NCBI GenBank assembly: GCA_001802125.1
Contig: MGZK01000168.1
Coordinates: 1 to 32,586 of the forward strand
Reading direction: 5' to 3'
From: Geobacteraceae bacterium GWC2_55_20
GTDB lineage: Bacteria > Desulfobacterota > Desulfuromonadia > Geobacterales > Pseudopelobacteraceae
DNA: 32,586 nt
Below are positions 3,486 to 24,584 of the stretch, piece after piece (position 1 is the stretch's first letter; each line of letters begins with the position of its first letter). The notes under the pieces are model-generated. The model was not told the origin of the DNA. It saw nothing but the letters and a program-made list of their open reading frames with translations, and made no database searches. The translations under genes and the position numbers were made by a program.

Positions 3486-4201
3486 CGCGACAGGACCTCG
3501 CGTTGAATATCGAACAACCTGCGAATGCCGCTCATGGCAAGCTCGCGCATTTGATCCATCTGGGCGATCGTGAACGGTTCTGCCTCGGCGGTACCCTGAA
3601 CCTCTACGAATCGGTCGCTGGAGGTCATCACATAATTCATGTCAACTTCTGCGGAAGAATCCTCGGGATAATTAAGGTCCAGCAAGGCCTCCCCTTCCAC
3701 AATTCCGACGCTGACCGCGGCAACTGCTTCGCGGATCGGCAGCTCAGCCAGCAATCCCCTGTTCCGCAGTGTATTCAAGGCATCCACCAGGGCCACGTAG
3801 GCGCCGGTTATGGAAGCGGTGCGGGTTCCACCGTCGGCCTGGATCACATCGCAATCGATATGTATCGAGCGCTCGCCCAGCCTGGCAAGATCGACCACGG
3901 CGCGCAAGGAACGGCCGATCAGCCGTTGGATCTCGAGCGTGCGGCCGCTCTGCTTTCCCTTGGAGGCCTCGCGCGCCGAACGTGTGTGGGTGGCACGCGG
4001 CAGCATCGAGTATTCGGCTGTAACCCAGCCGGTGCCCTTGCCCCTCAGAAACGGCGGAACCGACTCTTCTACCGATGCGGTACAGATGACCCTGGTGTCG
4101 CCAAATTCAATCAGTACGGAACCTTCGGCATGTTTGATAAAGCTACGCGTAATGGCAATAGGGCGCAGTTCCCTGGCTTCACGCCCGTCATTCCTTGTCA
4201 T
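3482..4201 (-). CDS. rph: Ribonuclease PH
   Basis: Phosphorolytic 3'-to-5' exoribonuclease that trims tRNA 3' ends, 239 residues from the chosen start (family about 238). Motifs seen include RNDGR at the N terminus, [46 protein letters not shown] with the conserved arginines, and [19 protein letters not shown] with active-site aspartates. I chose ATG at 4201 because GGGAGA lies six bases before it. An in-frame TTG at 4219 has no ribosome-binding site and sits at about the predicted transcription start. First gene of the rph-rdgB-rlmD operon. Confidence 0.95.
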
Positions 4202-5178: not shown

Positions 5179-6747
5179 CTATTCCTCCGACTTGTGCAGC
5201 TTGTAATCGATACTGTCGATCAGAGCCTGGTAGGAGGCATCGATAATATTATCGGAAACACCAACCGTACCCCAACGGGCATGCTTGTCGCCGGATTCAA
5301 TCAGAACACGGGTTGAAGAGGCCGTTCCCTGACCGGCAGGCAAAACGCGGACTTTGTAATCCAGCAGCTTGACTTCTTTCAACTTGGGATAAAACTTTTC
5401 CAGCGCCTTGCGGATGGCATTGTCAAGTGCGTTTACCGGACCATTTCCCTCTGCGGCGGTATGCTCGACCTTGCCGCCGACCTTGACCATGATAGTCGCT
5501 TCCGCAATGGGTTTCTGCTCTTCACCGCGTTTCTCGTCAATAACGCGAAAGCCCAAAACCGTAAAAAACTTCTTGTGAGATCCGAGCGCCTTTTTCATCA
5601 ACAGCTCAAAAGAAGCTTCGGCGCCTTCAAACTGGTAGCCGCGATTTTCCATTTCCTTGATGTTATCCAGGATTTCAAGTGTAACCGGATCCTTGCTGTC
5701 CAGGTTGATGTTGAACTCCTCGGCCTTGGCCAGAATATTGGAACGTCCGGACAGGTCCGAAATCAGTACGCGGGTGCAGTTACCCACCAATTCGGGACGC
5801 ATATGTTCGTATGTCTCCGGGTGGCGCTGTATGGCGCTGACATGCACCCCCCCCTTGTGGGCGAATGCCGAATTGCCGACATAGGCCTGATGCTTGTTGG
5901 GAGAGATATTGGCAAGTTCGTAGACAAAGCGCGAGAGATCACGCAGATGGCGCATCTGCTCGTCGGAAATGCAGTCGTGTTTCATCTTGGCTTTCAGTGC
6001 CGGGATGATCGAGCAGAGATTGGCGTTACCGCAACGTTCGCCGAAACCGTTGATCGTGCCCTGCACCTGGACGATGCCCTGATCCACGGCATGCAGTGAA
6101 TTGGCCACGGCGCACTCGGAATCGTTATGGGTATGTATGCCCAGCGGGGTCTTGATATGTTCTTTGACAATCTTGATGATTTCGGACACTTCGTACGGCA
6201 TGCTGCCGCCGTTGGTGTCACACAGAATGATGCAGTCCACACCGGCCTGCTCGGCAGCTTTAAGCGTCTTGATTGCGTAATCCGGATTGGCCTTGTAACC
6301 GTCGAAGAAATGCTCTGCGTCATAGAACACTTCCGGAGCATTTTTCTTCAGATATTCCAGTGAATCGAAGATCAGCTCCAGGTTCTCCTCCAGCGAGATG
6401 CGCAGGGCCTCACGTACATGAAAGTCCCAGGTCTTGCCGAAAATAGTGATCGCATCCGGTTCGGCTTTCACCAGGGTAATGATGTTGCTGTCCTTGTCAG
6501 GTGTCACCTTGGCGCGGCGGGTCGAGCCGAAGGCGGCGATTTTGGCCTGCTGAAGTTTCTCCTTCTTGATTTCCTTGAAGAAAGCAACATCCTTGGGGTT
6601 GCTGCCGGGCCAGCCCCCCTCGATATAATGAATACCGAGCTCATCCAGTTTATGTGCAATACGGATTTTGTCTTCCAGCAGAAAGGAGATGTCCTCCGCC
6701 TGGGTTCCATCCCTCAGAGTTGTATCGTACAATTTGATAAGACTCAT
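5179..6747 (-). CDS. cimA: (R)-citramalate synthase
   Basis: Condenses acetyl-CoA with pyruvate to (R)-citramalate, the first step of the threonine-independent isoleucine route. 522 residues, typical of the long CimA/LeuA-like group. The HMGL-type TIM barrel shows [11 protein letters not shown] at the N terminus, [15 protein letters not shown] with metal-binding His residues, [11 protein letters not shown] and [12 protein letters not shown]. The last 130 or so residues form a LeuA-type regulatory dimer domain, so isoleucine feedback is plausible. ATG at 6747 follows GGAGG by seven bases. 2-Isopropylmalate synthase is the alternative family, but length and the [15 protein letters not shown] start favour CimA. 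Confidence 0.9.
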
Positions 6748-6817: not shown

Positions 6818-6957
6818 CCCTTGTACCGGTTTAGATCAAAAAAATCAACTGATTTGCAAGCCTTCAGATCTTGACCAGGTCTCGCTCACATGCAATTTGT
6901 CTTTATTTAAAGCGGCTGTTCTGCTATATGGAGCTATTGTGAAATTCTGGTCTACCC

Positions 6958-7313
6958 ATAAAAGATTTTGACTTACTCGGCGTGCATCCAGCCTTTCTCG
7001 GCGGTTAACAAAAGCTTTAAATCATGGAACCGCCGATTAACGCCGATACACGCAGAGAAGGCCAAAAACATAAAAGATGAAATGATTTTGGGTTACACAT
7101 AAAAGACTTTGACTTACTCGGCGTGCATCCAGCCTTTCTCGGCGGTTAATAAAAGCTTTAAATCATGGAACCGCCGATTAACGCCGATACACGCAGAGAA
7201 GGCCAAAAACAGAAATGATGAAAAGATTTTGGGTTACCCATAAAAGACTTTGACTTACTCGGCGTGCATCGCTTGGAAGCGCCTACTTCTGGCCGCCTTT
7301 CTCGGCGGTTAAA
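6958..7313. repeat. Array of a 141-bp hairpin repeat, two and a half units
   Basis: Units start at 6958, 7099 and 7240, an exact 141-base period. Each unit has a left arm (ACTCGGCGTGCATC, then TTTCTCGGCGGTT), the centre GCTTTAAATCATGG, and a right arm (AACCGCCGATTAACGCCGAT, then ACACGCAGAGAA) roughly complementary to the left arm. A full unit can therefore fold into a long hairpin. The third unit stops after its left arm and carries an extra insert (7271-7294) before the SLBB gene. The related array is at 11623-11956. The rest of the 6748-7351 gap contains only the cimA leader and the SLBB-gene leader. Confidence 0.9.
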
Positions 7314-11488: not shown

Positions 11489-12232
11489 AAAAGAGTATTA
11501 ACGGAAAAAATCGGTGGGGAATAATATCCTGGAAAAGCAGGAGTATTACCCGGTGTAAAAAATTTAACCGACAGTTTTCCATTTTGAAACGTCGATGTAA
11601 CAACAGTTTGGTATGTTAGAGAGTATTTTTTGTAATTATGTATCATTCACAACTTTGCCTCAGTTAAACGGCTAAAATGCTTTAAATCATGGAACCGCAG
11701 ATGAACGCGGCCAAAAGTAGGCGCTCTGTAGCGAACACACAGAAAAGATCAGAAACAGAACGTTTTAAAGATTATGGTTTACCCATAATAGATTTTGATT
11801 TACTCGGCGTGCATCCGCCTTTCTCGGCGGTAATAAAAGATTTAAACCAATGGAACCGCCGATGAACGCCGATGCACGCAGAGAAAAACGGAAACGACAA
11901 AAGAGTTTAAGACTCTGGTTTACCCATAAAAGACTTTGACTTACTCGGCGGTTAAAACATTATTTTCCCGTATGTAACTGATTTTCCAAGTAGCATTGAT
12001 TTTGTTTAAAACGGGTATATAACTTCCACTATAACCAGGCACAGAAAGGAGAATTCAGCAATTTCAAGCCCGCCCCCGGTATCTGTGCTATTACCGGACT
12101 TTAGAGCAATATTAATTATTGCAGTTAATCACAAAACATTATAGAGTAGCCGCAACTGGAACGACGTAACACTACCATCAACGACAACAAAATTGATTTT
12201 GGGTCAAATCCAGCGAAAAAGGAGAATGAATC
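11489..12232. other. Intergenic region with the right-hand 141-bp repeat array and an AT-rich leader
   Basis: No gene is supported here. 11623-11956 holds the repeat array. From about 12034 to 12085 an inverted repeat GCACAGA/TCTGTGC spans 38 bases and may give structure to the leader of the next gene. A small hairpin CCTG/CAGG lies near 11529-11542 after the preceding gene but lacks a T tract. Confidence 0.6.
11623..11956. repeat. Right-hand array of the 141-bp hairpin repeat
   Basis: It holds one right half-unit (centre GCTTTAAATCATGG at 11679 onward, with the extra insert GGCCAAAAGTAGGCGCT at 11709-11725), one full unit starting at 11785 and the first part of another at 11926. The spacing 11785 to 11926 is again exactly 141 bases. 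The sequence is more diverged from the consensus than the left array. Confidence 0.88.
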
Positions 12233-14253: not shown

Positions 14254-15537
14254 TTGACTACTGGAGCCACTTCATCAAGACTATCCTTTGCGAATCTATT
14301 TTCCAAAGGCATTTGGGCAGTTCTTGATCAAGGAGTGTTTGCGATATCAAATTTCATCGTAAACATTCTTCTTGCTCGCTGGCTTAGCTTACAGGATTAT
14401 GGTTCGTTTGCCGCTTCATTCTCAGTACTGCTACTGATCGGTACATTTCACACGGCATTGATAACCGAGCCATTACTGGTATATGGCTCCAACAGATTCA
14501 AACACCGCATCACAGACTATGCAGCAAGCCTTATCTTCGGTCATGCCATATTCAGCATATTAACAAGTGTAATGATCTTATGTGCAATTGCTCTTTTGAC
14601 CACTCTGGGACAAAAGCAATATGTCCAGGCAGCAATTGGACTTCTGATCGCACAGCCATTTATTCTCCTCACGTGGCTGACAAGAAGGCTTTGTTACTGC
14701 CATTTTACGGTGCAGCTCGCCGTAATGGCTGGCGTTATCAACCTGTGTGTTACCCTGTCGGGATGTTATCTGCTCTTCAGCATCGGTAAACTGTCGCCCC
14801 TTACTGCATTTGTTTTGATGGGTATATGCGGACTGTTGTCATCATGCTTAATATTATTCAGATTATTTTCGTCGTCGGAAATATTCAATTCGTCTGCTTA
14901 CAATCGGGAGTTCTTATCCGCTCATCTGCACTATGGCCGCTGGGCACTTCCATCAAGCCTGCTGACCTGGATACCAGCCAACTTCTATTTCGTGATTCTC
15001 CCGTTCTGGGGACACATCGAACTAGTTGCTCTGCTGAAAGCCCAAAACAACCTGCTTACCCCAGTGCTGCAATTTAATACTGCACTTGCAACACAGCTCA
15101 TACCGGTATTTGCGAAATGCAAAGACCGACTACAACAAGCAAAATGGAGCCGATACCTGTTAGCTAGCTTTACGATGATTTCACTTTTGTACTGGTTCAT
15201 GTTATTTGTGTTCGGAGATTTTTTGATGCAGGCATTATATGGTCCACATTTTTTGCGGGACAACAAGAGCCTGCTGATACTCGGTCTGCTACCGCTTCTG
15301 ACCGGAGTCATTGCGGTACTCGGCAGTTCTATCCGCGCCAATGATAAACCACATCAGATCTTTTGGTCATATTTGTCAGCCAGTTTTTTCAGCACGACTA
15401 TTGGTGTTTGGATGATGATCCGCTGGGAGCTCATCGGAACATCTATCGCCATAGTTACTTCCTATCTGGTTGTGACTACAGTCATGTCCTGTTACTATGT
15501 TTTCGATAGGAGTCCTCATATTCATGCCATTAACTAA
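14254..15537 (+). CDS. Wzx-like polysaccharide flippase
   Basis: 427-residue polytopic membrane protein of the MATE/MVF (MOP) superfamily. The N terminus shows the family pattern LFSKGIWAVLDQGVFAISNF and LARWLSLQDYGSFAASFS, followed by about 12 hydrophobic segments. It should flip lipid-linked repeat units from the cytoplasmic to the periplasmic face. The start is uncertain. The frame begins with TTG at 14254, one base after the chain-length stop, and no ATG occurs nearby, so translational coupling is likely. Its end overlaps the radical-SAM fusion gene by 14 bases. Confidence 0.8.
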   Translation: MTTGATSSRLSFANLFSKGIWAVLDQGVFAISNFIVNILLARWLSLQDYGSFAASFSVLLLIGTFHTALITEPLLVYGSNRFKHRITDYAASLIFGHAIFSILTSVMILCAIALLTTLGQKQYVQAAIGLLIAQPFILLTWLTRRLCYCHFTVQLAVMAGVINLCVTLSGCYLLFSIGKLSPLTAFVLMGICGLLSSCLILFRLFSSSEIFNSSAYNREFLSAHLHYGRWALPSSLLTWIPANFYFVILPFWGHIELVALLKAQNNLLTPVLQFNTALATQLIPVFAKCKDRLQQAKWSRYLLASFTMISLLYWFMLFVFGDFLMQALYGPHFLRDNKSLLILGLLPLLTGVIAVLGSSIRANDKPHQIFWSYLSASFFSTTIGVWMMIRWELIGTSIAIVTSYLVVTTVMSCYYVFDRSPHIHAIN

Positions 15538-17803
15538 GCTGCTCCAAATTACGTCATATTGCGCTGACTGGTTCCTCAAACCCGCCAGACTTCGTCGTCA
15601 GACCGATTTCCCAAGGGTTCTTAACCTTCTTGTAACAGAAGCATGCAACTGTCGCTGCATAATGTGCAATGTCGGCAGTCAAGATTCACAACGGCAATAC
15701 ACACCAGCTGAGCTATCAAATATACTTGCGGACAAATTGTTCAGCAAATTGCTGCACGTTGGTATTTCCGGAGGTGAACCAACTCTTCGACCTGACTTGA
15801 GCGAGCTTGTCACTTCTATTATCTATTCAGTTCCTGCACTGCGTACCCTCTCACTTACCACAAACGGTACTCGTCCAGACATGTTGAGACAACTGTTGCC
15901 CGCCATTGTCCAGACATGCTCTGAAAAGGGGGTAACATTTACTTTGAATATATCACTGGACGGCCAAGCCAATGTGCATGATGAGATACGACAGCGTGAT
16001 GGCAGCTATAATGACGCAATAGAGTCCCTACAGATTGCCGTTAGCCTTCACATTCCGACACAACTGCAATGCACTGTTTCGTCAGCCAACGTATACGGAG
16101 TTGAGGGGATACGACATCTGGCTGTAAAATTTGGGGTGGAGGTTGTCTTCAGGCTTGCCACAACCATCTCGCGTCTCAACAATCACGAAAAGATTCGTGA
16201 CATTTCTCTGACCGACCATGAAAAATCGTTTTTTGCCGATTTTATTTCCTCGCCGGCTACCCTCAAAAAAACCAAACAACCTAATCGTAGGCTGCTGTAT
16301 CTCGATCTGGCCAGAAGGCTGACACAGGGCGGCACAAGGCGGGCGCCTTGCTATTTCCAGCATGAAGGGGTAATGCTCACTTCATCCGGCGATCTCTACA
16401 CCTGCTCTATCTGCGACTCACCTATGGGAAACGTTTTCAAACAATCTCCTTACGAACTATACTTTTCACCACGCACTAGTGAACAACGCGACAAAATGAT
16501 TAATGAAACATGTCCAAATTGCTTGCACGATCAGTCCGGTGCTTGGTCACCGATCATGCTCGCCAAAGGCATGTTAGCAAATCATCCAGCCGAACGTCTT
16601 TTAAAACGATGCCGCATCGCCGCCAGTTTTTTCACAAATGGACCAATCATGCTATCAAGCAGCCGCAGGTTTTCAAGAAACAAACCAACGCTACCGATAA
16701 CAGAACATAGCTCAAACCTAGTCAAAACAGCACTTCTCATTGGTTGTTACGGAGGAGAACACGTTGGTGATGCTGCAATCCTTGGTGGAGTATTAATGCG
16801 ACTGCACGAAGATTTTGAGATTGAAAAGGCGTTAGTGGCAAGCTTTCGCTCCGACCGCACCAGACGCTGGTCAGAATCGTTGCGCGATTGCATTCCAACC
16901 GAAGTGATCGAGTATACAGATGAGAGTATAGAAAAAGTACTGCCGACATGTACATACCTTGTTTTTGCCGGCGGGCCATTAATGGATTTGCCAGGGGTCC
17001 TTATCCGTCATCTCAGCACAGCTATCAAGGCAGCAAACTTAAATACTCCTATACTCATAGAGGGATGTGGCATTGGGCCATTCAGACTAAAACTCAGCAT
17101 GGCCATCGTACGAAGACTGCTGGAAATGGCTTCATCCATAAGATTGCGCACACAAGCCAGTATTGATATTGCAAGTGCATGGGGACTGGCAGCCCGTTTG
17201 GACAGGGATCCGGCCTTTGATTATCTTGATATGCGCGCAAAGCAAATCGGTCACAAGCCCCCATTACCGACTATGTTACAACATATATGCAAAACCCCCC
17301 GAAAGCTCGTGGGAATCAACCTCCGCCCTCTTTGGCAGCGCTACGCCAAAGGCCACCTGCGACCACAACAGATGCGAACAATCGAAGAGAACTTTCTTGC
17401 GGAATTGGGCCAGGCAATGAAACATTTTCACGACACTATCCGCTTCGTTTTTTTCCCAATGAACCCCGATCAATACGGCTTTTCAGATCTTTCTGTCGCA
17501 TATGCACTGAAAGACAAGCTGTCACTTGAAATCGATTATCATATCTGGGAATATGAGCCTAATGTTGATGAGGTCATCACATTTTTGCAAAGGATGGATG
17601 GATGCATTACCATGAGATTTCATGCCAGCATCTTTGCGCTAGCCCAGAAAATCCCCACTATAGGCATCGACTACGGTATTGCACAGCAGAGCAAGGTAGG
17701 TGATCTTTTTTCCGAGGCAGGATTAGGTGACAATGTATCATCAGTTGAGAAGATAAATCACCAATGGCTAATAGAAAAGTTTAATAGCATTATTGAGTCT
17801 TAG
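15524..17803 (+). CDS. Radical SAM / polysaccharide pyruvyl-transferase fusion
   Basis: 759 residues. Residues about 30-340 form a radical-SAM enzyme. C41-x3-C45-x2-C48 (EACNCRCIMC) binds the 4Fe-4S cluster, GGEPTLRPDL binds SAM, and a C-terminal Cys set (PCYFQ, YTCSIC, TCPNC) fits a SPASM/twitch auxiliary cluster. Residues about 400-745 form a polysaccharide pyruvyl-transferase domain (PF04230) with GGEHVGDAAILGG, FAGGPLMDLPG and ITMRFHASIFA. Such domains transfer enolpyruvyl or pyruvyl from PEP to sugars. ATG at 15524 has AGGAG upstream and overlaps the flippase end. There is no stop or frameshift between the domains, so the fusion is real in this sequence. The radical-SAM substrate is unknown; a peptide or sugar modification is possible. 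Confidence 0.82.
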   Translation: MPLTKLLQITSYCADWFLKPARLRRQTDFPRVLNLLVTEACNCRCIMCNVGSQDSQRQYTPAELSNILADKLFSKLLHVGISGGEPTLRPDLSELVTSIIYSVPALRTLSLTTNGTRPDMLRQLLPAIVQTCSEKGVTFTLNISLDGQANVHDEIRQRDGSYNDAIESLQIAVSLHIPTQLQCTVSSANVYGVEGIRHLAVKFGVEVVFRLATTISRLNNHEKIRDISLTDHEKSFFADFISSPATLKKTKQPNRRLLYLDLARRLTQGGTRRAPCYFQHEGVMLTSSGDLYTCSICDSPMGNVFKQSPYELYFSPRTSEQRDKMINETCPNCLHDQSGAWSPIMLAKGMLANHPAERLLKRCRIAASFFTNGPIMLSSSRRFSRNKPTLPITEHSSNLVKTALLIGCYGGEHVGDAAILGGVLMRLHEDFEIEKALVASFRSDRTRRWSESLRDCIPTEVIEYTDESIEKVLPTCTYLVFAGGPLMDLPGVLIRHLSTAIKAANLNTPILIEGCGIGPFRLKLSMAIVRRLLEMASSIRLRTQASIDIASAWGLAARLDRDPAFDYLDMRAKQIGHKPPLPTMLQHICKTPRKLVGINLRPLWQRYAKGHLRPQQMRTIEENFLAELGQAMKHFHDTIRFVFFPMNPDQYGFSDLSVAYALKDKLSLEIDYHIWEYEPNVDEVITFLQRMDGCITMRFHASIFALAQKIPTIGIDYGIAQQSKVGDLFSEAGLGDNVSSVEKINHQWLIEKFNSIIES

Positions 17804-17869
17804 TCATATCTGTCATTACTTAATAAAAGACATCACAATATGCCACTAAAGTTACATTTATCTTGGAAA

Positions 17870-18049
17870 AATAAGTATCCCCCGGCACAGCCGGGGGTTT
17901 TACGATTGCTGCCCCCTCAAAGGGGGCTGATCGCAATCGGTTAAAGTCAAAATCCCAGAACCTGCAATGCTGGGATGAAGCTTTATTGCCGAAAAAGTCA
18001 AACTTTGGGAGTCCCCCGGCAGAGCCGGGGGATTACCTATAGGAATTTA
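17870..18049. repeat. 180-bp multi-hairpin repeat, copy 1
   Basis: Identical base for base to 21849-22028 and in the same orientation. It contains a palindrome CCCCCGGC-ACA-GCCGGGGG near the left end and a bipartite hairpin (CGATTGC...GCAATCG around GCCCCCT/AGGGGGC). An ATCCCAG/CTGGGAT stem follows, and a near-copy of the first palindrome (loop AGA) sits near the right end, followed by CCTATAGG. The subterminal palindromes resemble ends of IS200/IS605-type elements, suggesting a non-autonomous derivative. The first palindrome followed by TTTTA could also end transcription from the upstream operon. No transposase is in the window. The rest of the 17804-18092 gap is featureless. Confidence 0.9.
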
Positions 18050-18092
18050 TTGTTCCTGACAGTATTTCGTAAATGGAGTAATTTTTAAAAAA

Positions 18093-19388
18093 ATGTCAGA
18101 TAGATATTTATTGTTTCTTGCAATTATCTTGTTGGGCTACTCCATTTTTGGCAAGACATTTGCTAAAATTGGTTTTCCGCCACTATATATTGGCGAGTTG
18201 GCTCTTCTGGCAGGTCTGTATTCCATTGCAAAATCCAATGCAATCCAAAATATTACAAAATTGAAAGTCAATTACGTTTTTATTGCATTCTTTCTAGTCG
18301 GAATCAGTTGTACACTTCCTTATATCACAAGATATAAGGTCGATGCTTTAAGAGATGCAGCGGTTTGGGGCTATGGTTTGTTTGCAATCATACTATTCTG
18401 TAAAATTTATGAGAGACCATCTACTTTAGAGTATTATATAGAATTGTATTCTAAGTTTGTATTTATATTTTTAATAATTACTCCTGTAGTCTGGTTAATT
18501 GTCCAACTCTTTTACGGTGGAGTATCAAAATTACCATCAGCCGGACAAAAGCAGTTGTTTTATATGAAGACGCCTGATGTCATGGTTCATCTTTCCGGTA
18601 TTACAGCTTTTTTTGTAACTGGCTTTGCACGATTCAATAAATTCTATGCAGTATTACTTGTACTCAATATCATGCTCTGCGCGTATTCTACCCGTGCAGG
18701 GATGTTGACATTTATGACTTCGTTTGGTGTGTTGATTATATTTAATCGTGACAACATAATAGTTAAAAGAATGGTTAAAATAATTATTCTGTCTTTGTTC
18801 TTATTTTGGGCCTCGGGAATAAGCATTAAAACCGAAAGACGTGAAATATCCTTTACCCAGTTAAAAAACAATCTTGTTAGTGCATTTACTACATCAAGTG
18901 ATGAGTCTCTGGATGGCACCAAATTATGGAGACTCTTATGGTGGAACGAGATTTTGAACTATACTTTTTTTGGAGAACACTTTTGGCAAGGCAAGGGATT
19001 CGGAATCAATCTCGCAAATGATGATGGGTTCCAGGTACTTGAAGACGATGACTCGTTGCGAAGTCCGCATAATGGGCACATGACATTTCTTGCACGAGAA
19101 GGAGTCCCGGGTTTCATGATATGGATTGCCCTACAACTTGCATGGGCCGGTTCGGTCATCGCCTCCTATCGTTCAAGCAAAAGGAATGGACATCGTCTCT
19201 GGTCCAACTTTTTTCTGTTTCAGCTTGCCTATTGGTCTGCATTTGTAGTTAATGCCTCTTTTGACGTATATCTGGAAGGACCTGTTGGCGGCATTTGGTT
19301 TTGGACGGTTTTCGGGGTGGGCTTGGGAGCGGTGTATATTTATAAGTTCAGAGTGAGCAATAATAATATTTTAAATCTGAAATGTTAA
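18093..19388 (+). CDS. O-antigen polymerase/ligase-like membrane protein (Wzy/WaaL family)
   Basis: 431 residues with about 11-12 predicted membrane segments. It has a large periplasmic loop in the second half containing the family-type SPHNGHMTFLAREGVPG motif (H-N-x-x-L/T...E-G pattern) after LWWNEILNYTFFGEHFWQG. The Wzy_C fold either polymerises lipid-linked repeats or ligates polymer to an acceptor. Because Wzx- and Wzz-like genes are present and no other polymerase is visible, polymerase is the better guess. GGAG is 14 bases before the ATG, a long spacing. AT-rich. It is the first of three genes between the identical 180-bp repeats. Confidence 0.75.
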   Translation: MSDRYLLFLAIILLGYSIFGKTFAKIGFPPLYIGELALLAGLYSIAKSNAIQNITKLKVNYVFIAFFLVGISCTLPYITRYKVDALRDAAVWGYGLFAIILFCKIYERPSTLEYYIELYSKFVFIFLIITPVVWLIVQLFYGGVSKLPSAGQKQLFYMKTPDVMVHLSGITAFFVTGFARFNKFYAVLLVLNIMLCAYSTRAGMLTFMTSFGVLIIFNRDNIIVKRMVKIIILSLFLFWASGISIKTERREISFTQLKNNLVSAFTTSSDESLDGTKLWRLLWWNEILNYTFFGEHFWQGKGFGINLANDDGFQVLEDDDSLRSPHNGHMTFLAREGVPGFMIWIALQLAWAGSVIASYRSSKRNGHRLWSNFFLFQLAYWSAFVVNASFDVYLEGPVGGIWFWTVFGVGLGAVYIYKFRVSNNNILNLKC

Positions 19389-19480
19389 GGCTCATGGTCT
19401 GGAACAATCTATAATTGTCAAGTTAACGCGCGAATTATCTTTCTCGTTTTTACTCTACCTGATAGCACCGGATAACCAGC

Positions 19481-20899
19481 ATGATATTTAACTCACTTTT
19501 GTATATTCTTTTCCTGCCTGTTGTATATATTGTGTTTTACATAACAAAAGACCAACATCGCTGGCTAGTTTTACTTTTGTTTAGTTATGGATTTTATGCA
19601 AGCCTTAATGCACCTCACCTACTGCTAGTATTGATTCTCATCACAATAATCAGCTTTTATTGTGGCTCGGTGCTTGGAAGAACAACAGATGAAACCAAAC
19701 GCAAGTGGGTTTTCCTGGCGGGTGTAACAGGATGCATATTAATATTGGTTATTTTTAAGTATCTGCACATCATTATGCCTTCAAGTTTTGCCAATATATA
19801 TTCGAGTCTGCTTGTCTCTATTGGTATTTCTTATTTTATCTTTCAATCTGTATCCTATATCGTTGACGTTTATATGGAGATACACCCACCGGAACAGCAC
19901 TTCGGCCATTACTCCCTATATATGGCTTTTTTCCCAAAGCTGCTTCAAGGCCCCATTGAACGTGCAGGAGATCTACTCCCCCAACTCAAGAAACCATATG
20001 TATTTAATTATGACACTATGCGTAGCGGCATGCACCTTTTTGCGTGGGGACTTTTTAAAAAAGCAATCGTTGCGGACCGACTTTCACTCTATGTGAACCC
20101 AGTTTACGGAGACGTTCATACCTATGTTGGTTTGCCCTTTATTCTAGCTACTTATGCTTATGCGATGCAGATTTTTTTCGATTTTTCGGGTTATACTGAC
20201 ATGGCTCGTGGAACGGCAAGATTATTTGGACTATCACTGACAGAGAACTTCAATAGTCCTTATCTGGCACCATCAATAGCCGATTTCTGGCGCCGTTGGC
20301 ACATCTCCTTTTCACGCTGGATACTTGACTATATCTTCAAGCCGCTACAGATGTCCTGGCGCAATCTAGGGCAGCATGGAAGCGCACTCGCCCTTCTGAT
20401 CACCTTCTTTATTTCAGGTATTTGGCATGGAGCTACCTGGGGGTTTGTTCTCTGGGGGGTACTGCATGGAGTCTACCTTGCAGCATCCACATATTACCGA
20501 CCGTATCAGAAGAAGCTTCATAAATGGTTTAAGCTGGATAAAAGCAAAGTTCTTAGGGCCTGGCAAGTGTTAGTTACGTTCAATCTGGTGAGCTTTTCTT
20601 GGATTTTCTTCAGAATGGGCAGTGTCGCGGATGCTTGGTATGCAATTATCCATATGTTTAGCGGCATTGGGAATGTACGCGCATGGTTTTTTGTCGAAGG
20701 AAACTTGGAACTGGTTCGTACGGCACTCGCTCTTTTTGTGATTGTTATTTCTGTAATCATAAAACATTACACAAGAATACCGCAGACGTTTTATTCACAA
20801 CCACTGTTGGCTAGATGGACATGTTATTGCGTAATATGCTTTTTGATGCTGTGTCTGTACGTCAGAGCAGACAGCCAATTTATCTATTTCAAATTTTGA
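19481..20899 (+). CDS. MBOAT-family O-acyltransferase (AlgI/DltB-like)
   Basis: 472-residue polytopic membrane protein. Family signatures are FFPKLLQGPIERAGDLLPQL, FFDFSGYTDMARGTARLFG, NFNSPYLAPSIADFWRRWHI and the catalytic-His segment GIWHGATWGFVLWG (H316), all in the usual order. MBOAT proteins pass an acyl group through the membrane to an extracytoplasmic acceptor. AlgI passes acetyl for alginate and DltB passes D-alanine from a carrier protein. The SGNH-like gene follows 11 bases after its stop, as AlgJ/X or DltD partners usually do. The nearby ligase-carrier pair suggests the donor may be an acyl-carrier thioester rather than acetyl-CoA. Confidence 0.88.
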   Translation: MIFNSLLYILFLPVVYIVFYITKDQHRWLVLLLFSYGFYASLNAPHLLLVLILITIISFYCGSVLGRTTDETKRKWVFLAGVTGCILILVIFKYLHIIMPSSFANIYSSLLVSIGISYFIFQSVSYIVDVYMEIHPPEQHFGHYSLYMAFFPKLLQGPIERAGDLLPQLKKPYVFNYDTMRSGMHLFAWGLFKKAIVADRLSLYVNPVYGDVHTYVGLPFILATYAYAMQIFFDFSGYTDMARGTARLFGLSLTENFNSPYLAPSIADFWRRWHISFSRWILDYIFKPLQMSWRNLGQHGSALALLITFFISGIWHGATWGFVLWGVLHGVYLAASTYYRPYQKKLHKWFKLDKSKVLRAWQVLVTFNLVSFSWIFFRMGSVADAWYAIIHMFSGIGNVRAWFFVEGNLELVRTALALFVIVISVIIKHYTRIPQTFYSQPLLARWTCYCVICFLMLCLYVRADSQFIYFKF

Positions 20900-20910
20900 C
20901 TGGAACACCA

Positions 20911-21834
20911 ATGATACGACTTGTGGTAAAAATAGTAATTTTTGCAATATTATCGGTTGCTATCGATAATGCCATTGGAATGTATCTAAAGTCCGGATTG
21001 GATAACTATTACGGCTTCGCCAAAAAAGCCAAAATAGTTTGCATTGGAAATTCTAGGATGGATCTAGGGATCGATGAGAAGAGTATTGAACACGAATTGG
21101 GTGTTCCTGTAGCAAAATATGCATTACACGGCTTTCCCTACAAAGATATCCTAGTGTTAGTGCGCCATTACTTTGAGGTTTGTGCTACGACTCCAAAAGT
21201 TGTCGTTTATAACATTGATTTTGGAAGTGTTAGAGGGGAGGGTAATATTAGTGCCAATCATTATCAGTTATTGTATCCTTACTTGGGCAATCATATCATA
21301 CGAAGTTTTGTAAAGCATAATGAAACCTCTTGGGAGGCATTCCGACTCAGAGAATTCATAAAGACATTTCGTTTCAATACATCATTGATAAACATTGCCC
21401 TGCGCGAAAATATGCATTCAGCCAAACGATATGACAAAAAACTTAAATTGCTGGACATAACGAATTATAATGAAGCTAAGAACCTTGAAATTAAGTCTGC
21501 TGATATCGGACGTCAACTAACGGAATATAAAGGTCTATCCTATATTGATGATGCAATTCATTACCTCCGGGCACGAAATACAAAGATAGTATTCCTCTAT
21601 ATTCCAACAGTTGAAATGATACAGACACCGGAAAACAGGGCCGATTTCGAGATTTTGATTAAATACCTCAAGCAACGTAGCGAAAGTGACCCAGGCATTA
21701 TCCTAATGACTTCCCTGAAGCAGTATGAAAATAGACTTGAATTATTCAATGATGCATATCACTTCAATTCGGACGGTAGAAGGATAGCCACAGCAGAGTT
21801 GACTAAAATGTTAAAGTCAGTGGCGCTGCATTAG
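20911..21834 (+). CDS. SGNH-like acyltransferase partner (DltD/AlgJ-type role)
   Basis: 307 residues from ATG 20911; an earlier in-frame ATG (20815) lies inside the MBOAT gene. One N-terminal membrane anchor (LVVKIVIFAILSVAI) is followed by a periplasmic domain with a putative nucleophile S48 in CIGNSRMDLGID. Near the end D280-x-x-H283 (NDAYHFNSDGRR) completes a Ser/Asp-His set of the type in DltD and AlgX/AlgJ. Overall similarity is too low for naming by eye. Directly after the MBOAT gene, it probably receives the acyl group and transfers it to the polysaccharide. The 180-bp repeat begins 15 bases after its stop. Confidence 0.7.
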   Translation: MIRLVVKIVIFAILSVAIDNAIGMYLKSGLDNYYGFAKKAKIVCIGNSRMDLGIDEKSIEHELGVPVAKYALHGFPYKDILVLVRHYFEVCATTPKVVVYNIDFGSVRGEGNISANHYQLLYPYLGNHIIRSFVKHNETSWEAFRLREFIKTFRFNTSLINIALRENMHSAKRYDKKLKLLDITNYNEAKNLEIKSADIGRQLTEYKGLSYIDDAIHYLRARNTKIVFLYIPTVEMIQTPENRADFEILIKYLKQRSESDPGIILMTSLKQYENRLELFNDAYHFNSDGRRIATAELTKMLKSVALH

Positions 21835-21848
21835 AACTTCTAGCCTTG

Positions 21849-22028
21849 AATAAGTATCCCCCGGCACAGCCGGGGGTTTTACGATTGCTGCCCCCTCAAA
21901 GGGGGCTGATCGCAATCGGTTAAAGTCAAAATCCCAGAACCTGCAATGCTGGGATGAAGCTTTATTGCCGAAAAAGTCAAACTTTGGGAGTCCCCCGGCA
22001 GAGCCGGGGGATTACCTATAGGAATTTA
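21849..22028. repeat. 180-bp multi-hairpin repeat, copy 2
   Basis: Perfect copy of 17870-18049 in direct orientation. The flanks differ immediately outside (TTG before and GGTAATTC after, versus AAA and TTGTTCC), which defines the unit as AATAAG...GAATTTA. It sits between the SGNH-like and ligase genes and would interrupt an otherwise coherent four-gene module. The 22029-22182 stretch after it is AT-rich with no convincing promoter. Confidence 0.9.
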
Positions 22029-22182
22029 GGTAATTCGAACTTTATTTAGTTAATTTAATATCCAAAAGCTCCATAACTACCGGTTTATTAGAAGAGCAAA
22101 GCAGTTAAGTGACAATTAGTTATTAATAGTCATGCTGTTTTATGTTGGAAAAGTTATCAACAAATGTCATAAAGGTAAAATT

Positions 22183-23802
22183 ATGAAGATAATTAATGAA
22201 CAATACAACATCGGCCACATCTGTACCCACCAAATTTGCGAACTTGGACTTAGTGACAAACCGGCATTTCACTGGATATCTTCCCATCAGGAGAAGACAG
22301 TCTATAACTTCAGAGATCTTGATTTTGCATCGAACCGATTCGCCAATGCTTTGCAGTCTCTTGGATTTAAAGCTGGCGAGATTCTGTTTACCTTTTTACC
22401 AAAGACCCCCGAACAGTTCTTCAGTTTTCTGGGCGCTTTGAAGCTTCAGGTCATCTGTGGCACACTATTTTCAAACTTCGGTGACGATGCCTTACTCGAT
22501 AGATTGGGTGATGCCAAAGCCAAAGGAATCGTTACCAAAAAGAGTTTTCTCACAAAAATCAAGCGAATTAGTCACCATTTGCCCTCACTTAAATACATTA
22601 TCGTTACCGACATTAATGAACACCAGTCAGATTATATACTTAGCTATCAGGCTCTTATGCGTGAAGCTTCTGACTATTTTGTCACCCCAATAACACCTGC
22701 GGATACCCCCTCGGTCCTGCACTACACTTCAGGTTCAACCGGTAAACCGAAAGGTGTTTTACACGCCCACCGCAGCATCCTGCACCAAAGTAGAACTGCT
22801 GCAGAAGTGCTGAACTTGTCCAACGCCGACATTTTCTGGTGTACCGCCGACCAGGGCTGGGTAACCGGAACGTCCTACGGAATTATCGGCCCCTGGAGTC
22901 TTGGAATTACACAGGTTCATTATGGTGGCGGCTATGATGCCAAACTATGGTTCGACTTATTACAAAATGAGGGGGTTACCATCTGGTATTCAGCACCTAC
23001 GGCACTGCGCATGCTGATGCGAGAAGATGCAAAACTTTACAAGGAATATGACCTGAGTGCACTTACGCACATCTTCAGCGTCGGGGAACCACTCAACCCC
23101 GAGGTCATCAACTGGGCACGGTCTACGCTTGGCAAGGATATTTACGACACCTGGTTCCAGACCGAAACCGGTGGCATCATGATCACAAACCGACCAGGAC
23201 TTGAAATCAGGCCTGGTTCAATGGGAACACCCATGGACGGTATTGAACCTGCTATCATTGCCGATAATGGAGAATTACTTGACAATAATAAACAAGGTAA
23301 CCTCTGTATTAAGATCGGCTGGCCCTCAATGTTTGTCACCTATCTTAACAATGAATCAGCCTACAATTCCAAAATCAAGAACGGATATTACTATACCGGT
23401 GACACGGCGGTTCGTGATGATTATGGATATTACTGGTTTAAGGGACGCAGTGACGATGTCATTAATACCGCCGGACATTTAATAAGCCCCTTCGAGGTTG
23501 AAAGTGCACTTCTTGAAATTGAAGAAATTGCAGAATCAGGGGTAATCGGCGCCCCAGACGAATTGCTGTACGAAAAAATTGTTGCGTTCGTCCATCTTCA
23601 TAAACAGTTCAACTGGTCAAAGGAGCTTGAAATTAAAGTCAGGCTTCATGTCAGCAACAGAGCTTCATCCATAGCCACACCGCAAGAGATCATCATTATT
23701 GAAAGCATACCAAAAAATAAGAGCGGCAAAATCATGCGGCGGGTTCTTAAATCTCGCTACCTGGGGCAGGATGCTGGAGACTTATCCACACTGGAGGATT
23801 AA
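22183..23802 (+). CDS. AMP-forming acid-CoA/carrier ligase (acetyl-CoA synthetase-like)
   Basis: 539 residues from ATG 22183 (AAAGG eight bases upstream; the frame extends 17 codons back without support). ANL-superfamily motifs in order: HYTSGSTGKPKG near 180, DTWFQTETGG near 323, YYTGDTAV, GRSDDVINTAGHLISPFEVE, and PKNKSGKIMRR with catalytic K516. It should adenylate a carboxylic acid and pass it to CoA or a carrier. The residue before QTETG is Phe (F325), where acetyl-CoA synthetases have Trp and medium-chain enzymes Gly, so a small acid is plausible. The acyl-carrier gene starts three bases after its stop, which points to loading of that carrier. Ordinary acetate activation is the alternative. 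Confidence 0.85.
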   Translation: MKIINEQYNIGHICTHQICELGLSDKPAFHWISSHQEKTVYNFRDLDFASNRFANALQSLGFKAGEILFTFLPKTPEQFFSFLGALKLQVICGTLFSNFGDDALLDRLGDAKAKGIVTKKSFLTKIKRISHHLPSLKYIIVTDINEHQSDYILSYQALMREASDYFVTPITPADTPSVLHYTSGSTGKPKGVLHAHRSILHQSRTAAEVLNLSNADIFWCTADQGWVTGTSYGIIGPWSLGITQVHYGGGYDAKLWFDLLQNEGVTIWYSAPTALRMLMREDAKLYKEYDLSALTHIFSVGEPLNPEVINWARSTLGKDIYDTWFQTETGGIMITNRPGLEIRPGSMGTPMDGIEPAIIADNGELLDNNKQGNLCIKIGWPSMFVTYLNNESAYNSKIKNGYYYTGDTAVRDDYGYYWFKGRSDDVINTAGHLISPFEVESALLEIEEIAESGVIGAPDELLYEKIVAFVHLHKQFNWSKELEIKVRLHVSNRASSIATPQEIIIIESIPKNKSGKIMRRVLKSRYLGQDAGDLSTLED

Positions 23803-23804
23803 CC

Positions 23805-24035
23805 ATGGATTTACAGCAAAAATTGAACGAAATATTCTGTGAAGTATTTGATGACGATGACATCTCTATCACTCGTGAGTCAACAGCAAATGATATCGAT
23901 GGTTGGGACTCCCTTTCTCACGTTAATCTGATCGTAGCAATCGAAGCCAAATTTAACATTAGGTTTAATCAGAAAGAATTGTTGACATTCAAGAATGTGG
24001 GTGATTTGCTTAAATGCATTGAGAGTAAAATTTAA
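23805..24035 (+). CDS. Acyl/aminoacyl carrier protein
   Basis: 76 residues, acidic and helical. It has the phosphopantetheine attachment motif GWDSLSHVNLI (S36 in D-S-L), the length and spacing of ACP/DltC/PCP proteins. GGAGG in the end of the ligase gene serves as ribosome-binding site, and only two bases separate the genes, so they form a two-gene unit. It is unlikely to be the housekeeping ACP, whose usual neighbours fabD/fabG/fabF are absent. It probably carries the acid activated by the ligase to a transferase, with the nearby MBOAT as best candidate. Confidence 0.88.
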   Translation: MDLQQKLNEIFCEVFDDDDISITRESTANDIDGWDSLSHVNLIVAIEAKFNIRFNQKELLTFKNVGDLLKCIESKI

Positions 24036-24120: not shown

Positions 24121-24160
24121 TTAATTACCCCGCCTACAAAGCGGGGCTTCAAATAATTAA
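24121..24160. repeat. Palindromic element after the carrier gene
   Basis: A nested palindrome: outer TTAATTA/TAATTAA arms and an inner CCCCGC-CTACAAA-GCGGGG stem, with CTTCAAA bulged on one side. It is preceded by TGGGAGT, as is the right palindrome of the 180-bp repeat. It resembles an end of an IS200/IS605-type element, or may simply terminate the ligase-carrier transcript; the following T content is low. Confidence 0.5.
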
Positions 24161-24584
24161 ATGCACAGCAATTTTCCGGATTGACTGACAAAATAATACT
24201 ACAAGAACAACCCCAAGATGCTTGAACCTGCCTTCAGCAGGAATGCTTTTCATCCCCGTTCACAGAACTGGAATTCAAGTTTTGAAGATTTCATAAACAC
24301 CCAAAGCCTAAATGTCATCACTGATAAAGCCAATTACGGCCTATATAGATGGTGATGAAATAAGCATACGTCGGAAGGTGGGGGGTCTTCAAAATAGTGA
24401 GTCGATCGAAACGGTGTTTCAAAAGGTATCGACCCACCACATATGGTGGCCATATTTCAGCCAAAAAATCATTACCCAAAATGTTTGTCTTCGTCTTAAT
24501 GGTTAAGTATGTAGTTGGCAATTATTTCCTCATCAGCAACTGTTGAAACAAAGTAGATTTCATCTTATTGAATTTTAGAAATTC

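Follow-up and report, generated by a model that had tools for sequence, protein, structure and literature searches.

What has placed two perfect copies of one sequence on either side of three polysaccharide genes? The question is raised by a 32,586-nucleotide stretch of DNA from Geobacteraceae bacterium GWC2_55_20 (assembly GCA_001802125.1, contig MGZK01000168.1, positions 1 to 32,586), hereafter the window, in which direct repeats of 180 bp bracket genes for a Wzy-type polymerase or ligase, an MBOAT O-acyltransferase and an SGNH-type protein. The original prediction read this arrangement as an exchangeable cassette giving phase changes of the exopolysaccharide and, for the repeats themselves, suggested a non-autonomous element related to IS200/IS605. 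The comparison with related genomes described here makes it very probable that each repeat is a palindrome-associated, transposase-less IS200 derivative of about 175 bp, whose bracketing of the genes is probably incidental.

The repeat and its relatives

The repeat search of the window returned two copies of 180 nt (17870-18049 and 21849-22028) that are 100% identical, run in the same orientation and lie 3979 nt apart from start to start. Identity ends at both edges and the flanks of the two copies are unrelated, in keeping with the abrupt borders first described. A third copy, identical over unit positions 2-180, was found on another contig (G000:C161:13227-13405), which brings the total in the organism's own assembly (4.55 Mb, 186 contigs; all 9 candidates scored) to three and fits the earlier suggestion of recent movement. 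The neighbours of this third copy are a PsiE-family gene (Pfam) on one side and, on the other, a gene recognised by eye as that of a P-type ATPase, so the unit is not a polysaccharide feature. No listed open reading frame of at least 90 amino acids overlaps either copy in the window. The extreme ends of the unit differ, that is, terminal inverted repeats are absent; palindromes lie near both ends, and the two of 19 bases, CCCCCGGCACAGCCGGGGG and CCCCCGGCAGAGCCGGGGG, are near-identical as predicted, their difference being confined to the loop. None of the three copies has a duplicate in its flanks. Folded as single-stranded DNA (201 bases), the repeat gave a z score of -6.57, and 0 of 200 shuffles were as stable.

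The identity of the unit became apparent from the related genomes. In a search of 98 genomes, matches to part or all of the unit were present in at least 31, the organism's own included, and in at least 30 of the 97 other relatives of the order; since scoring stopped at 8 candidates per genome, these counts are lower bounds. Several relatives matched at the two ends only (positions 3-32 and 115-180), which in them are about 550-650 bp apart. The five complete elements that were read are 646-654 bp long and have the same ends as the unit; relative to the query, each carries on the opposite strand a TnpA reading frame that stays open for 156-157 codons from stop to stop. The TnpA of one of them, from genome G052, matched the transpos_IS200 model (NF033573) with 144.7 bits (cut-off 55) and Y1_Tnp with an E value of 2.7e-39, and scored 34.8 against the REP-associated model, below its cut-off of 80. 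Shorter units, 176-210 bp in length (180 bp for that of the window if the flanking target is counted), are delimited by the same ends; 10 copies were read in 7 genomes, the organism's own among them. The comparison shows that the unit has the ends of complete IS200 elements of about 650 bp in related genomes, and it places the unit in an already known class, the palindrome-associated, non-autonomous IS200 derivatives. One locus in a relative (L048, G041:C3:3120300-3128700), considered as a captured cassette, was rejected because its ends, 6.3 kb apart, enclose transposase genes (IS21-like and others, open reading frames read by eye); it is an interrupted IS200 element.

The hairpins of the unit are kept by compensatory changes. 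In 8 short elements, the two terminal and the two nested internal stems keep their pairing, with 96.6% of cells paired (36-57% in slid-partner controls) and 7 pairs changed on both sides; 0 of 500 shuffles were as high on 4 of 5 measures and 12 of 500 on the fifth. A unit of genome G011 that diverges after position 142 (L050) was in the first alignment and was left out of the covariation count. On the minus strand, the strand of the transposase, each copy has a left-end hairpin with the guide TAAT (18013-18031; 21992-22010 in copy 2), an internal nested hairpin with compensatory changes in relatives (17903-17939; 21882-21918) and a right-end hairpin with an 8-bp stem, the guide AAAA and the cleavage site TTAT (17879-17897; 21858-21876). 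Two internal hairpins had been predicted: that at 17903-17939 is conserved and covaries, whereas the second (ATCCCAG/CTGGGAT) is present but not conserved in the alignment.

Target choice and the limits of the unit

On the transposase strand, the left end consists of the target TAAN, 10 bases, the guide NAAN and a hairpin. Among 18 distinct left ends, the fourth bases of target and guide form a Watson-Crick pair in 17, a value reached by 3 of 10,000 shuffles that ignore relatedness; TAAA occurs with the guide TAAT in 10 cases and TAAT with the guide TAAA in 7. At the right end, the fourth base fits in 14 of 18 (11 of 10,000 shuffles as high), mostly as AAAG with TTAC or AAAA with TTAT. Ends entered the tally if their spacing was exactly 10 bases, their guide read NAAN and 7 or all 8 hairpin pairs formed; loci duplicating the window or its contigs, the joined pieces of G052 and the 80 genome-contig loci were omitted. 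The end scan gave 34 matches (L006 counted twice), 32 of which are consistent with the guide rule, and two loci with ends outside the tally filter (L012 and L028) obey it as well. A target/guide pairing of this kind has been described for IS200/IS605 in the available text of two sources (PMC6006769, PMC7290912), and the covariation between the base flanking the left end and the guide base is what would be expected for the single-strand transposition of that family.

Because of this covariation, the limits of the unit were placed at 17871-18045 (copy 1) and 21850-22024 (copy 2), both on the minus strand, with the inferred target TAAA (TTTA on the plus strand) at 18046-18049 and 22025-22028. The assignment of the two copies is based on their identity to each other and to the third copy (179 bases) and on the ends shared with complete IS200 elements. 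Of the 180 bases, about 175 would be mobile, the remainder being the TAAA target and one base matching by chance, and the right limit may be off by one; the extent first given for the repeat stood as a stretch of identity and would be too long for the mobile unit. The suggested relationship to IS200/IS605 is borne out by the ends held in common with IS200 elements encoding a Y1 TnpA, by the covarying hairpins and by the guide/target covariation.

In the proposed mechanism, a TnpA acting in trans would recognise the two subterminal hairpins on single-stranded DNA and cut the unit out as a single-strand circle; this would go into a site 3' of TAAA, as read on the transposase strand, and duplicate no target bases. 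Three insertions of this kind may have taken place recently in the source genome. Two of them, in the same orientation and in intergenic gaps of one exopolysaccharide operon, would have left the wzy, MBOAT and SGNH genes between direct repeats. Homologous recombination could delete or circularise these genes, an outcome that is physically possible and probably incidental.

Several observations weigh against this explanation. An intact cognate TnpA was sought in the organism's own assembly and not found, and a collapsed repeat could hide one; the matches were short pieces 52-56% identical at contig edges, one piece of 31% and a remnant in the window. A search for a TnpA or RAYT with matching hairpins had been proposed along with the original prediction. 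The complete element of G030 breaks the left-end rule (TAAT with the guide TAAT), 4 of the 18 right ends misfit, three of them carrying the left-type guide TAAT and one AATT, and a short unit of G011 (L051), which falls outside the tally filter through a hairpin mispair, combines TAAC with the guide TAAC; the disregard of relatedness in the shuffles belongs here too. Finally, the comparison of empty and filled sites, also suggested at the outset, recovered no empty site for any copy. For copy 3, a search of the 98 genomes (self included, at most 4 candidates scored in each) with its flanking sequences led to no relative, among those read, that keeps both sides; for copies 1 and 2, no relative among the genomes searched carries the wzy gene, and of the two neighbouring genes, wzy and the radical SAM/pyruvyl transferase gene, only the organism's own were matched in the 98 genomes (E 1e-10 and 1e-30, respectively).

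The remnant in the window, at 24359-24556 on the minus strand, is a truncated and decayed IS200 element of the same group, recognised by DNA identity (71.6-74.0% over about 200 bp to 4 of the 5 complete elements compared). It retains the right-end side and a C-terminal part of TnpA with stops, one TAA lying in the TnpA fragment. Contig C27 of the same assembly holds a degenerate end of 50 bases. Upstream of the remnant, a GC palindrome at 24128-24146 (CCCCGC, a 7-base loop, GCGGGG) is perhaps the end of another such element.

Among described systems, the closest kind is that of the PATEs (palindrome-associated transposable elements) of Haloquadratum walsbyi (PMC3119063). As far as the available text of that source goes, PATEs are, like the window unit, short and devoid of a transposase and terminal inverted repeats, and have subterminal palindromes related to those of the IS605 type; PATEs show no visible target duplication, and no duplicate is seen in the flanks of the copies here. 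Single-hairpin forms resembling core-deleted PATEs occur in relatives: at L022, L027 and L030, one hairpin is shared by the left-end target and guide and the right-end cleavage site. The window unit differs from PATEs in being bacterial (Geobacterales), in its tie to an IS200 group with TnpA only, in a conserved internal hairpin of its own and in number: the genome has 3 copies, whereas the two archaeal genomes have 177 and 194 PATEs belonging to six families. With the IS200 group (NF033573) it has in common the ends, hairpins and target/guide logic of the complete elements of G052, G057, G046 and G093; unlike autonomous IS200, it lacks tnpA and would need a transposase supplied in trans. It also differs from a classical miniature inverted-repeat transposable element, having neither a terminal inverted repeat nor a duplicate in its flanks. 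A literature search on miniature IS200 elements in Geobacter turned up work on Borrelia only, which does not show that the Geobacterales family is new to the literature.

The bracketed genes and their order

The repeats stand in a Wzy-type locus that also has flippase-like, chain-length and transferase genes, the operon genes lying on one strand. Between the two copies, the plus strand encodes a wzy-type polymerase or ligase (18093-19388; Pfam Wzy_C, E 1.2e-12), a DltB/PatA-like MBOAT O-acyltransferase that ends in FIYFKF (19481-20899; Pfam MBOAT, E 3.3e-22; 192.7 bits against the DltB model, below the cut-off of 375) and an SGNH/DltD-like partner (20908-21834). The first two gene calls of the original prediction were confirmed by Pfam, and the third is carried by motifs and a weak fold match. 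The GxS and DxxHxN motifs of the SGNH-type protein are invariant in a 6-sequence alignment; its model has a pLDDT of 73.8, and its best PDB match is DltD at E 1.7e-3, with none at or below 1e-3. No Pfam or NCBIfam family matched this protein, and an SGNH pattern scan of the genome contigs gave 15 matches, 0 of which were confirmed. Searches for wzy homologues returned only the gene itself among 98 genomes, 76 genomes of the family and 141 of the order, which are overlapping sets (E 1e-10, 1e-10 and 1e-8, respectively). Beyond copy 2, the plus strand continues with an AMP-forming acyl/acetate ligase-like gene (22132-23802, conserved start probably near 22183; Pfam AMP-binding, E 8.1e-69) and an acyl carrier protein gene (23805-24035; Pfam PP-binding, E 3.6e-7).

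The order of these genes is not that of the relatives, in which the ligase is usually followed by the carrier and the MBOAT. In 31 of 39 ligase loci outside the window, the next 4 kb downstream contain an MBOAT on the strand of the ligase; one of the rest has an upstream MBOAT, just downstream of a second ligase, and 7 have no MBOAT within 4 kb on the contig. This count covers the 39 of 50 non-self ligase matches with E below 1e-240, the 11 excluded being weaker or partial; the check for an intervening carrier gene covered the 18 fetched operon loci only. In the window, the MBOAT and SGNH genes precede the ligase; a homologue of the window SGNH gene was detected behind the MBOAT in 2 of the 18 fetched loci (L110, L112). 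The window ligase is 82-84% identical to its homologues in G021, G057 and G018, and the MBOAT is 52-57% identical to the MBOATs beside the G021 and G057 ligases. Between the MBOATs of G057 and of G021 contig C375 (the latter partial), identity is 85%; the window MBOAT is 52% identical to either. Among the best 80 of at least 594 matches in the MBOAT scan, the nearest are 57% (partial) and 54% identical. Judged from its sequence and position, the window MBOAT is divergent and displaced. Its place before the ligase/carrier pair, together with its divergence, indicates that the operon was rearranged, and the permuted gene order and divergent MBOAT would fit a modular past. A divergent MBOAT does not need the repeats, since contig C784 of G021 has one (55-57% identical to others) in the normal gene order with no element detected. 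No left end of the element turned up in the end scan of the 18 operon loci that were fetched, a set that includes several short contigs. A remnant of a native MBOAT was sought after the window carrier gene and not found.

The pairing of an MBOAT with an SGNH protein is reminiscent of Dlt and PatA/PatB (PMC12148441, available text), here with an adjoining ligase and carrier protein. C-terminal tails of the F-x-Y-F-x-F type are described in that text for carrier-free systems. The MBOATs in question end in F-[IVA]-Y-F-x-F in 14 of the 16 that were read (window 19481-24035 and loci L107-L124). Unlike Dlt and PatA/PatB, the window thus has an MBOAT with its own tail as well as a carrier gene, a combination that points to an acyl transfer system of mixed type.

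Two other features of the window were seen. At 15497-17803, a radical SAM domain is fused to a polysaccharide pyruvyl transferase, and a search for this gene returned only itself among 98 genomes at E 1e-30. Direct repeats of 141 bp (6924-7264 and 11675-11950) flank a polysaccharide export gene on either side, as two units that are 94% identical and diverged copies about 4.5 kb away.

Insertions, cassette and other origins

The bracketed arrangement could also have arisen if transposition from the outer ends, or else homologous recombination, had brought or relocated the wzy, MBOAT and SGNH genes between the copies; the whole would then be a composite element or exchange cassette whose genes can leave again, changing the polymer. 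This origin is improbable. It draws on the permuted order, with the MBOAT before the ligase-carrier pair against 31 of 39 loci in relatives, on the contrast between an MBOAT identity of 52% and a ligase identity of 83-84% to G057 and G021 C375, and on the location of copy 2 at the SGNH/ligase junction and of the old IS200 remnant after the carrier gene. Two loci in relatives argue in the same direction. In G052 (C1:208457-236907; L154, L155), a unit of about 6.95 kb with genes recognised by eye as those of a cation P-type ATPase, an ArsR-like regulator and a thioredoxin-like protein is present in about 4 tandem copies, 99.9% identical and with a complete IS200 at each border, so direct copies of the IS200 group can accompany amplification of the DNA between them. 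In G060 (L148, C40:165000-176000), two diverged units on the same strand and 2.2 kb apart (3741-3799 and 5958-6134) have a transporter gene between them. Against the cassette stand the G021 C784 locus and the 18 operon loci mentioned above, and the surroundings of the other short copies. The neighbours of 9 short-unit loci in relatives, read by eye from translations, look unrelated (tRNA synthetase, transporters, regulators, reductase and others), a galU-like gene 600 bp from L052 being the sole polysaccharide-related one recognised. Direct repeats of 180 bp can recombine; for the window, represented by one assembly, neither an alternative allele nor a circle or deletion form is known. The flanks fit two single insertions. 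The common orientation of the copies is expected without a cassette because the IS200/IS605 family prefers the lagging-strand template (PMC5371812, available text). Slightly more doubtful still is the full scenario, in which a transposase-less IS200 pair captured and relocated wzy-MBOAT-SGNH, replaced the native MBOAT and still allows the module to loop out, reversibly changing the polymer. The cassette with a phase switch was unsupported as first stated, as two independent insertions suffice and other short copies lie beside seemingly unrelated genes.

That the units are repeats of the REP/BIME type, moved by a domesticated RAYT transposase, is hardly credible. They are palindromic and intergenic, and the five Y1 proteins of the genome have open frames of 319-338 amino acids, which would be RAYT-like in size. 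They also have in common with REP/BIME and RAYT systems, as presented in the available text of PMC6006769 and PMC8266576, a hairpin with a guide tetranucleotide at its foot, and differ from them in copy number, guide sequence and transposase class: there are three copies only, the guides are TAAT and AAAA and not GTAG or CGTC, and the ends are common to complete IS200 elements, whose TnpA fits the IS200 model and falls short of the REP one. Retention of the repeats for a control function in the operon, exerted through RNA or DNA (for instance as attenuators separating blocks of genes), is very unlikely. The RNA fold of the repeat is very stable (z -7.38), and 7 terminator-like calls were made in 17700-22250, where shuffles give 3.9 (sd 2.2). 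Each copy holds one of these on the minus strand, and another, on the plus strand at 22009-22036, spans the edge of copy 2. However, the hairpin calls inside both copies point against the operon, Rfam at gathering scores matched only a tRNA and not the repeats, the third copy lies elsewhere, and a secondary effect on expression needs no separate origin. There is similarly little chance that unrelated segments were mis-joined in assembly through the identical repeats; three identical copies of about 180 bp in an assembly of 186 contigs and the unusual gene order would suit such an error, but the operon genes lie on one strand and form a coherent Wzy-type locus.

In conclusion, with two transposase-less IS200 insertions as the preferred explanation, a striking perfect repeat around a polysaccharide module becomes explicable by two recent events. 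The insertions are thereby kept apart from the reordering of the acyl-transfer genes, for which a different cause is possible. For the Geobacterales, the guide/target covariation across the IS200 group and its short derivatives allows an insertion rule to be proposed before experiment.

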